Below are positions 26,399 to 61,188 of a stretch of DNA of 64,000 nt, one piece after another (within the stretch, counting starts at the first letter, position 1; each line of letters starts with the position of its first letter). Below the pieces are notes generated by a model. The model was not told the origin of the DNA, did not search any database, and saw only the letters and a program-made list of their open reading frames with translations. Made by a program: the position numbers and the translations under genes. This DNA comes from Candidatus Fermentithermobacillus carboniphilus (GTDB lineage: Bacteria; Bacillota; Sulfobacillia; Fermentithermobacillales; Fermentithermobacillaceae), in the NCBI GenBank assembly GCA_018208355.1, contig CP062796.1, positions 2,168,517-2,232,516 on the forward strand, read 5' to 3'.

Positions 26399-26428
26399 TT
26401 TGCCAATATAACTGAATATCCACTGGAC

Positions 26429-26542
26429 CTTATCCAGAGCAGGTGAGGGACTGGCCCGATGACCCTGCGGCAACCCGCACTTTTGGTGCGAAGGTGCCAA
26501 TTCCAGCAGAACCGGTCCAGAAAAACGGTTCTGACAGATAAG
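26429..26542 (+). ncRNA. SAM-I riboswitch (S box)
   Basis: The closing helix P1 is CTTATC (26429-26434) with GATAAG (26537-26542). Core S-box sequences are present in order: CCAGAGCAGGTGAGGGA, CTGGCCCGATGA, CGGCAACC, the GGTGCGAAGGTGCCAATTCC stretch split by a hairpin loop, GCAGAA and TGACAGATAAGG. It precedes a methionine-type ABC transporter. High S-adenosylmethionine should favour the terminator that follows. Confidence 0.97.
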
Positions 26543-26552
26543 GGGACGTAAG

Positions 26553-58807: not shown

Positions 58808-59866
58808 ATGAGAAAGGTTATATCGACCTTGGTGGTGCTGTCTTTGGCTCTTCTCACCTTGGCCGGATGCCAAAGTGGTCCAACGATAGCGAAAATAGGT
58901 CTCGGGCACATCACCTCTATTAGCAAATCCACCGATCTTACGGTAGACAAGGACGGAAATGTGGTACCTCCAGTAGCGCAGGTAGATACCGTTATTGCGG
59001 CAGTTGCGTTCGACAAGAACGGCAAGGTTGTCAAGGTGACCATAGATACTGCTCAGACTAAGGTGAATTTCGACAAGGACCTCCAGATTACCTCCGATAT
59101 CAAGGCAGAAGGCAAGACTAAGGTTGAGCTCGGCGACCAATACGGCATGGCCAAGGCATCCAGCATCAAGAAGGAATGGTACCAGCAAATAGCTGAACTC
59201 GAAAAGTGGATGGTCGGAAAAACAGTCGATCAGATCAAGGCCATGAAGACCAAGCAGCGTGATGCCGCTCACCCGGCGGTTCCTGATGTTCCGGAACTTA
59301 CATCTCTTGTCACGATAACGGTTCAGGACTACATCGCTGCGGTGGAAGAAGCGTACAAGAACGCCGTTGAGGTTCCCAAGGGTGCTGCCACTCTAGGTCT
59401 GGGGCATATTGTAAAGACCGACAAGTCGGTTGGTTACTCCAAGACAGATACCGCCGAAACGCTTCCCGTTGCCCAAGTGAACACAACGATGGCTGCCGTC
59501 GCATTTGACAAAAACGGCAAGGTTGTGCGCGCTCTAATAGATACCGCCCAGACAAAGGTTCAGTACGATAAGGACGGTAAAGTAACTTCCGACAAGACCG
59601 CTCCGGTCAAAACCAAGAAGGAACTCGGCGACCAATACGGCATGGCTAAAGCATCCAGCATCAAGAAGGAATGGTACCAGCAAATCGCCGAACTCGAAAA
59701 GTGGATGACCGGAAAGACCATAGAACAGATCAAGGCCATGAAAACCAAGCAGCGTGACGCCGCTCATCCCGCTGTACCGGATGTTCCCGAACTCACGTCC
59801 CTCGTAACCATAACTGTTGAGGATTACCTCGCTGCCGTCGCCGAGGCCTATCAGAAGGCAAAGTAA
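58808..59866 (+). CDS. Lipoprotein with two tandem copies of an FMN-binding-like domain
   Basis: The signal peptide ends in LTLAGC (Cys about 21), so the protein is lipid-anchored outside the cell. The rest is two copies of a domain of about 165 residues (roughly 26-190 and 195-352). Each begins with GLGHI, has AQVDT or AQVNT, AAVAFDKNGKVV and IDTAQTKV, then LGDQYGMAKASSIKKEWYQQ, and ends in an acidic helix. I recall similar domains in uncharacterised clostridial proteins related to the FMN-binding fold. The usual ApbE target motif (SGAT type) is not seen. ATG 58808 lies six bases after AAAGGAG. The next gene is ApbE. Cofactor binding is inferred. Confidence 0.85.
   Translation: MRKVISTLVVLSLALLTLAGCQSGPTIAKIGLGHITSISKSTDLTVDKDGNVVPPVAQVDTVIAAVAFDKNGKVVKVTIDTAQTKVNFDKDLQITSDIKAEGKTKVELGDQYGMAKASSIKKEWYQQIAELEKWMVGKTVDQIKAMKTKQRDAAHPAVPDVPELTSLVTITVQDYIAAVEEAYKNAVEVPKGAATLGLGHIVKTDKSVGYSKTDTAETLPVAQVNTTMAAVAFDKNGKVVRALIDTAQTKVQYDKDGKVTSDKTAPVKTKKELGDQYGMAKASSIKKEWYQQIAELEKWMTGKTIEQIKAMKTKQRDAAHPAVPDVPELTSLVTITVEDYLAAVAEAYQKAK
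59129..59860 (+). repeat. 495-base period duplication within the lipoprotein gene
   Basis: The sequence CTCGGCGACCAATACGGCAT occurs at 59129 and again at 59624. The following 85 or so bases differ at only a few positions; identity then declines toward the ends. Proteins copies share the whole domain, so this is an in-frame domain duplication, partly homogenised. Confidence 0.9.
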
Positions 59867-59903
59867 GGCATATAAACCAGTATAGTTTTACGGGTTTAGG
59901 ATT

Positions 59904-59937
59904 TGAAGGCTCCTGCATCGACATGCGGGAGCCTTCA
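59904..59937 (+). terminator. Perfect 15-bp stem-loop after the lipoprotein gene
   Basis: TGAAGGCTCC-T-GCAT, loop CGAC, ATGC-G-GGAGCCTTCA forms an unbroken 15-pair stem with one T-G wobble. Only a short T-poor tail follows, so termination may be partial, allowing some read-through to apbE. Confidence 0.7.
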
Positions 59938-60081
59938 ACATTTGGCGCTGCATGTGGTGTTGCTGCACCACGGTGTTTTGCCATGGTGGCGTGCCGTAAT
60001 ATCGCGGGTTAGTGGCGCAAAGAACCGAGAGCCCTTGCCATAGAGAGAATGCTAAGTTAATGTAGAAAACTGGTGATACTA

Positions 60082-61188
60082 ATGAAAAAACCTCCCGCAA
60101 AATTCGCGGTAACAGTCGCGGTGATCCTTCTGGCTTCGACAGCTTTTCTGGTGCTCCGGAGCCTGGAACCCAGGTGCAAAAAATACACCGATAGCTTCTT
60201 CGATACTTTTGACACTGTTGTCACAGTCGTAGCGTATACGAAGGACAGGCAAGAATTCGACATGTATTTCCAGAAGATTCACTCGCGTTTCCAGGAGCTT
60301 CACAGGTTGTATGACATATACAACACCTACGAGGGCATAAACAACATTAAGACGATCAACGACAACGCAGGCGTAAAGCCGGTTAAAGTAAATAAGGAAA
60401 TAATCGACCTCATCTTGTTTGCTAAGGACTGGTACAAGCGCACAGGCGGGAAGACCAACATCGCTATGGGTTCAGTGTTGCGGATATGGCACGACTACCG
60501 CGAACGGGGTCAGGATGACCCGGCGAATGCAAAACTGCCTCCCATGGAGGCCCTCTTAGAGGCTGCAAAACACACCGACATAGATAAGGTCATCGTGGAT
60601 ACCGAAAACAGTACTGTGTATCTGGCTGACAAAGAGATGAGTTTGGATGTCGGTGCAGTAGCGAAAGGCTACGCAACCGAAATCGTGGCTAGAGAGATCG
60701 CTGCCGCAGGGCTTAAGTCGGGCATGATAAGTTCAGGAGGCAATATAAGGACCATCGGCACACCCCTTGATGGCAGGCGCGAACGATGGAGTGTGGGCAT
60801 ACATGACCCCAGGAAATCTATATTCTCCGAAGAGGATAGCCTGTTAGGCATCGTTTACGTCGGTGATGGTTTCTCGGTTGCAACCAGCGGCGGTTATCAG
60901 AGGTACTATATCGTCGACGACAAGGTATACCATCATCTCATAGACCCCAAGACATTGATGCCCGCAAATTATTACCTTGCGGTTACTGTAGTTGCCCAAG
61001 ATGCCGGCGTGGCGGATTTCATGTCAACGACGTTATTTTTGCTTCCCTATGACAAAAGCCGGTCGCTCGCTGAAAGCCTGGACGGTGTTGAAGCTGCGTG
61101 GGTGATGCCTGATGGCAGTGTGGAGGTCACCGACGGTATGAAAGCTCTTATGGGCGGCCACGATGCATCGGGGACAAAGCAACGATAA
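60082..61188 (+). CDS. apbE: FAD:protein FMN transferase ApbE
   Basis: Membrane-anchored enzyme that attaches FMN from FAD to Thr/Ser of target flavoproteins outside the cell. An N-terminal hydrophobic segment lies at about residues 8-27. ApbE motifs include the FFDTFDTVVTV start, LDVGAVAKGYA, SSGGNIRTIG, the YQRYY...HHLIDP segment and the metal-site ADFMSTTLF. ATG 60082 is preceded by GGTGA; GTG 60073 is in frame too. It follows the duplicated lipoprotein, its likeliest partner in this window. Confidence 0.94.
   Translation: MKKPPAKFAVTVAVILLASTAFLVLRSLEPRCKKYTDSFFDTFDTVVTVVAYTKDRQEFDMYFQKIHSRFQELHRLYDIYNTYEGINNIKTINDNAGVKPVKVNKEIIDLILFAKDWYKRTGGKTNIAMGSVLRIWHDYRERGQDDPANAKLPPMEALLEAAKHTDIDKVIVDTENSTVYLADKEMSLDVGAVAKGYATEIVAREIAAAGLKSGMISSGGNIRTIGTPLDGRRERWSVGIHDPRKSIFSEEDSLLGIVYVGDGFSVATSGGYQRYYIVDDKVYHHLIDPKTLMPANYYLAVTVVAQDAGVADFMSTTLFLLPYDKSRSLAESLDGVEAAWVMPDGSVEVTDGMKALMGGHDASGTKQR

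Follow-up and report, generated by a model that had tools for sequence, protein, structure and literature searches.

A two-domain lipoprotein with an altered flavinylation motif and its co-inherited ApbE as a probable extracytosolic flavin carrier and loader

The known motif of ApbE is D-x-x-[ST]-G-A-[ST]; mutations of G to A and of A to V in this canonical motif reduce flavinylation, which is still present, and loss of the Asp has a minor effect (PMC12052999). The described substrates include the extracytosolic, apbE-linked domains of FMN_bind (PF04205, FMN-bind1; e.g., NqrC, RnfG, CbFMN4 8p2b, CPE2226 3o6u, and 2kzx), and the DUF2271 and DUF3570 proteins, found via orphan apbE neighbors, whose authors state that less prevalent ApbE substrates are still unidentified (PMC8238504). 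PplA of the Listeria EET locus is a two-site lipoprotein encoded beside ApbE (FmnB), Ndh2, EetA, and EetB (PMC9973259, PMC8906456), EetB being the FAD-export subunit (PMC9973259). A further subtype, FMN-bind2 (Huang et al. 2024, mSystems, PMC11334425), has about 160 aa per domain, occurs often in two or four copies, and is linked to ApbE.

In the 64,000-nucleotide stretch C1:2168517-2232516 of Candidatus Fermentithermobacillus carboniphilus DNA that we analyzed (the window), a gene on the + strand encodes a lipoprotein of 352 aa (P0001; 58808..59866), with its ATG at 58808, aaaggag just 5' of it, and its stop at 59866. A signal peptide with the lipobox LAGC (58808..58870, +; residues 18-21, Cys21) was recognized from the sequence and a weak PF08139 match. 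The rest of the protein consists of two domains of about 160 aa each, domain 1 (58880..59368, +) and domain 2 (59381..59863, +), which share 116/156 identities (74%, E 1e-81) and are nearly the same over the C-terminal 65 residues or so. On the same strand, 215 bp downstream, lies the gene of an FAD:protein FMN transferase, ApbE, with an N-terminal membrane anchor (60082..61188, +; PF02424, E 3.9e-67). A lipid-anchored protein of two near-identical domains ahead of ApbE, as an earlier sequence-only reading had described it, is thus borne out by lipobox, domain identity, and the PF02424 match. Single-domain members of the family also occur (L043, L046, L048), and in Geosporobacter subterraneus (L031:5521-6978) an N-terminal stretch, peptidoglycan-binding-like when read by eye, replaces the lipobox.

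No Pfam family matched the lipoprotein above its cut-off (PF19092, DUF5780, fell under its own and was dropped), and at the gathering score of PF04205 it had no match while five other FMN_bind domains were found in the genome. It resembles FMN_bind in being extracytosolic, apbE-linked, and similar in profile over the motif and final helix, but it differs in carrying DLxSxVT rather than DxxSGAT and about 160 rather than 80-120 aa per domain. The DUF2271 and DUF3570 domains are unrelated to it by Pfam scan. PplA was rejected as an ortholog because its motif and spacing differ (PMC8906456, PMC7074142): its SGAT sites, T143 and T265, are 122 residues apart and the predicted sites of the lipoprotein 165. 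By published description, not member sequences, the lipoprotein is probably the unmodelled FMN-bind2 subtype or its sister: both have an Erysipelotrichaceae example (L044 in our family; PMC11334425), and the FMN-bind2 insertions between b1/b2 and b3/a1 would fit the secondary structure of our domain model (b1 29-37, b2 56-68, b3 73-88, a1 from 105). The FMN-bind2 text, however, mentions a [S/T]GA[S/T]-like motif only and describes no ApbE clade specific to it (PMC11334425), whereas the lipoprotein has a variant motif and such a clade. Our literature search on FMN-bind2 or non-canonical motifs returned no closer description. To call the system undescribed was an overstatement, as ApbE-flavinylated multi-domain lipoproteins are known and the architecture matches FMN-bind2; what is new is the changed motif, the ApbE clade dedicated to it, and the inheritance of the two together, and the motif with the co-inherited clade was not found described in the literature searched.

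The canonical motif is absent from the lipoprotein, and to that extent the remark that no acceptor motif is visible was literally correct; nevertheless, an equivalent of the same spacing, ELTSLVT, with both G and A changed, is present in both domains. From conservation, and for the first copy also from alignment with DVTSGAT of a distant homologue (L117), the predicted FMN acceptors are T169 (motif 59294..59314, +; codon 59312-59314) and T334 (motif 59789..59809, +; codon 59807-59809). The family consensus near the C-terminal end of each domain, just before the last helix, is [DE]-[LI]-x-[STA]-x-V-[TS]. In the alignment of domain 1 copies, position 169 is Ser/Thr in 70/70, V168 is kept in 70/70, and residue 163 is acidic in 71/71; the corresponding counts for domain 2 (positions 334, 333, and 328) are 65/65 each. 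Pooled over both domains, the acceptor Ser/Thr (Thr-to-Ser swaps included) and the Val are kept in 135/135 and the acidic residue at -6 in 136/136. Three distant single-domain homologues hold the canonical motif at the acceptor place (ADVTSGATIS in L117, VDVTTGATMS in L113 and L114); Pfam scans of L117 and L113 gave no FMN_bind match, and likewise for distant family members. One of these cousin domains is borne by a LysM protein (L113:5299-6282). Elsewhere, a canonical FMN_bind domain (VDTVSGAT) is fused in one protein (L034:50-1102) with a remotely homologous version of the lipoprotein domain that ends in DVVAKATMS; immediately downstream of this fusion gene come a gene for a two-domain lipoprotein and apbE.

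Searched with a family profile built without the canonical cousins, 177,635 PDB sequences gave 2kzx as the best match, at a marginal E of 0.0027, and the 2kzx segment TDAISGATIKV falls on the lipoprotein motif. 2kzx itself matches the FMN_bind profile made here (E 6e-10), which also finds 8p2b, 3o6u, 8p2a, RnfG, and NqrC. Aligning the lipoprotein-family and FMN_bind profiles with hhalign gave the same register at a modest probability, 56% with and 25% without the bridging cousins. Although AlphaFold2 gave high-confidence models (pLDDT 93.1 and, for domain 1, 95.5), neither the two-domain nor the single-domain model had a significant solved match in PDB by Foldseek. The structure comparison that had been proposed as a check thus yielded no significant FMN-binding match, and it was the sequence profile that gave 2kzx, marginally. 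Weak Foldseek matches to IscU (TM up to about 0.47, rmsd 7-11 A) were judged spurious, and the one phmmer match of P0001 in PDB was attributed to chance. The cousin motifs, the profile match, and the hhalign register support an FMN-binding-like domain as proposed from the sequence, and homology to solved FMN-binding domains has marginal support in the profile match.

We then examined the distribution of the pair. The lipoprotein was found at 29 GTDB loci, in 12/61 near relatives, and in 41/398 sampled genomes of the phylum (omitting six weak matches); carriers include Clostridia, Paenibacillus, Geosporobacter, Alkaliphilus, Erysipelotrichaceae, and others, and searching a plasmid collection with one family member added one further host, Acetoanaerobium noterae. 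Two genomes (G289 and G400) have two copies each, at separate loci. Among 71 distinct members, 66 had enough flank to evaluate, and in 58 of these apbE lies directly downstream, amid varied gene orders; a search for the domain beside apbE in other genomes, suggested from the sequence, thus found the recurrence and not the absence that would have counted against the idea. In three more copies apbE is nearby: upstream (L042), divergent (L048), or past a second lipoprotein, where two copies stand in tandem ahead of one apbE (L132:5738-8146). The paired ApbE type is present in 12/12 relatives with the lipoprotein vs 0/49 without (Fisher p 6e-13). Searched independently, the ApbE type occurs in 45/398 genomes of the phylum: both genes in 39, the ApbE type alone in 6, and the lipoprotein alone in 2, whose matches are near contig ends (39/41 lipoprotein genomes, p 4e-45). 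Within the same family, five genomes without the lipoprotein also lack the paired ApbE, an ApbE of the other clade being retained in four of the five. Gains and losses of the lipoprotein coincide with those of the paired ApbE type, and the pairing is not due to chance.

The best solved relative of the paired ApbE is FmnB (7esa, E 6e-35), and its catalytic S269, R274, H285, and D312, equivalent to S257, R262, H273, and D301 of FmnB, are kept, as is T316 across the clade. In a tree of 83 ApbEs, the lipoprotein-linked ones form one clade (SH-aLRT 100) on a long stem; members of this clade were mostly retrieved through the lipoprotein, and the independent tests are the ApbE counts in the 61 relatives and 398 genomes. 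Three ApbEs inside the clade that were labelled as other (L042, L048, L049) also adjoin the lipoprotein. The Rnf-linked and other ApbEs fall outside, together with the one encoded close to L117, a cousin with the canonical motif. At otherwise fixed positions the paired clade has the changes M43F, D126N, T128A, G292L (in DPxTGxP; DPxTG to DPxTL), and G322P. In one family (f116; L196:4291-5763, L197:5790-7271), a paired-type ApbE adjoins a fumarate-reductase-like (FAD_binding_2) lipoprotein in which neither motif form was found, and f116 gave no match to the two-domain lipoprotein.

We consider it quite probable (about 0.8) that the two genes encode an extracytosolic flavin electron carrier with two covalent FMNs and its dedicated ApbE loader. 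Sequence, relatives, and gene partners suggest that the lipoprotein is the target of the paired ApbE at the altered motif; its flavinylation, electron transfer, and partners are what we infer from these. The lipoprotein would be anchored on the outer side of the membrane, where the paired ApbE would draw FMN from exported FAD and attach it through a phosphoester bond at T169 and at T334, so that the carrier would hold two flavins. Its domain would be a diverged FMN-binding domain in which D-x-x-S-G-A-T became [DE]-L-x-S-x-V-T, with ApbE changing in step. Co-inheritance with ApbE, the fixed Ser/Thr, and the canonical-motif cousins make an ApbE substrate, one of the options of the sequence-only reading, likely; its other option, a non-covalent flavin carrier, is not supported in view of the cousins and the fixed Ser/Thr. 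Points against the carrier-plus-loader reading are that Gly and Ala are both replaced, that neither Pfam FMN_bind nor Foldseek matched significantly and the 2kzx match is marginal, and, for a dedicated loader, that the ApbE type occurs in six sampled genomes that lack the lipoprotein, so that it may have other targets.

The last of these points would also fit the strongest alternative, to which we give a small but real chance, that the paired ApbE is a general transferase for canonical FMN-binding proteins (an RnfG-like protein, a 2xFMN_bind lipoprotein) and the lipoprotein an unflavinylated partner or accessory with non-covalent flavin or a role in substrate presentation. In six relatives the paired type is the only ApbE detected, yet these genomes also encode FMN_bind domains, and the three that were read (G001, G002, G008) have the canonical motif in them; the specificity of the paired ApbE is therefore probably broadened or shifted rather than exclusive. 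A general transferase, however, leaves unexplained both the invariant Ser/Thr at the SGAT acceptor place, Thr-to-Ser swaps included, and the canonical-motif cousins, and a second ApbE, linked to Rnf, is available for canonical targets in our genome and in others. Less probable still is a degenerate, once-flavinylated domain with a new role (e.g., metal, cell-wall, or solute binding), for which the apbE synteny would be a relic: the GA of the motif is lost family-wide and no FMN-binding structure is among the Foldseek matches listed, but the acceptor hydroxyl is kept in every one of the 135 copies and the lipoprotein is lost along with ApbE across many families. FMN on another Ser/Thr is very improbable, for although S118 and S283 are invariant among family copies, the threonines of DTAQT, suggested earlier as an acceptor, vary to N, V, A, and P (Thr in 31/71 copies at T81 and 44/71 at T84), and the VT site alone aligns with the SGAT of homologues.

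Among the genes that flank the pair, serine dehydratase halves and thrS were recognized by eye (ThrS being the product of the latter), and further flanking genes encode a CxxCxxCC protein, YtxC, and a molybdopterin oxidoreductase. No cluster beside the gene pair is conserved across the relatives compared, and hence the module consists of two genes. The more divergent members have the Gram-positive EET set as neighbors, i.e., an Ndh2-like oxidoreductase, polyprenyl synthetase, NusG_II (EetA), and PF07456 (EetB), some or all of which adjoin L043, L047, L112, L120, and L122-L127; in the EET loci of some relatives the lipoprotein occupies the place of PplA. The electron transfer at the cell surface that had been proposed is supported insofar as the lipoprotein is probably an electron carrier outside the cell. 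Where a relative encodes Ndh2, polyprenyl synthase, EetA, and EetB, demethylmenaquinol would be the electron source, just as for PplA. The EET set (Ndh2, quinone/prenyl genes, EetA, EetB) is not in the window; the 2.3 Mb genome has an EetB homologue at C1:1770441, and no UbiA/MenA and no close Ndh2 were found in it. Its rnf cluster (L054:2433-8039) has its own ApbE and no FMN_bind (RnfG) gene, and an RnfG-like protein with three FMN_bind domains (L052:6657-7835) is encoded far from it. For a published relative, Bu02, the predicted metabolism is fermentative, with rnfCDEAB present and a respiratory chain absent (PMC10215811). Because UbiA/MenA and a close Ndh2 are lacking, the lipoprotein of this host more likely receives its electrons from the Rnf complex, putatively through the three-flavin RnfG-like protein, rather than from quinone.

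There thus appears to be a second, overlooked form of a known electron-carrying machinery in many Gram-positive bacteria, and in the phylum sample roughly every tenth genome carries the pair. Surveys of flavinylation based on Pfam or the motif would miss it, because the lipoprotein members scanned have no match to the Pfam flavin-acceptor families. If the lipoprotein is flavinylated, the target rule of ApbE widens, a second flavin-tag becomes available, predicted non-respiring fermenters would have an outward electron route, and the lipoprotein may be the missing substrate in some genomes with orphan apbE. Conceivably, though we rate this tentative extension slightly below even odds, the ApbE clade and its acceptor have co-evolved into a second flavinylation code, in which the clade-specific changes (D126N, T128A, DPxTL) would let DLxSxVT rather than DxxSGAT be modified efficiently; such a code, if true, would amount to an orthogonal enzyme-tag pair and to a class of substrates that Pfam-based censuses lack.

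Between the lipoprotein gene and apbE lies a hairpin with a 16 bp stem and a 4-nt loop (59903..59938, +; gap fold z -3.3). Stems of at least 8 bp occur at this place in most relatives (L012, L024, L027, L033, and L086 among them), often with the core CTCCCCC/GGGGGAG and sometimes with a U-run, and in the intercistronic alignment four pairs reach consensus, of which three show a double change. The hairpin is possibly an attenuator or a 3' stabilizer and may let the substrate be made in excess over the enzyme. An Rfam scan near the gene pair found no FMN riboswitch or other element and no match for the hairpin; farther away in the window, a SAM riboswitch (RF00162, 96 bits) lies at 26427-26544.
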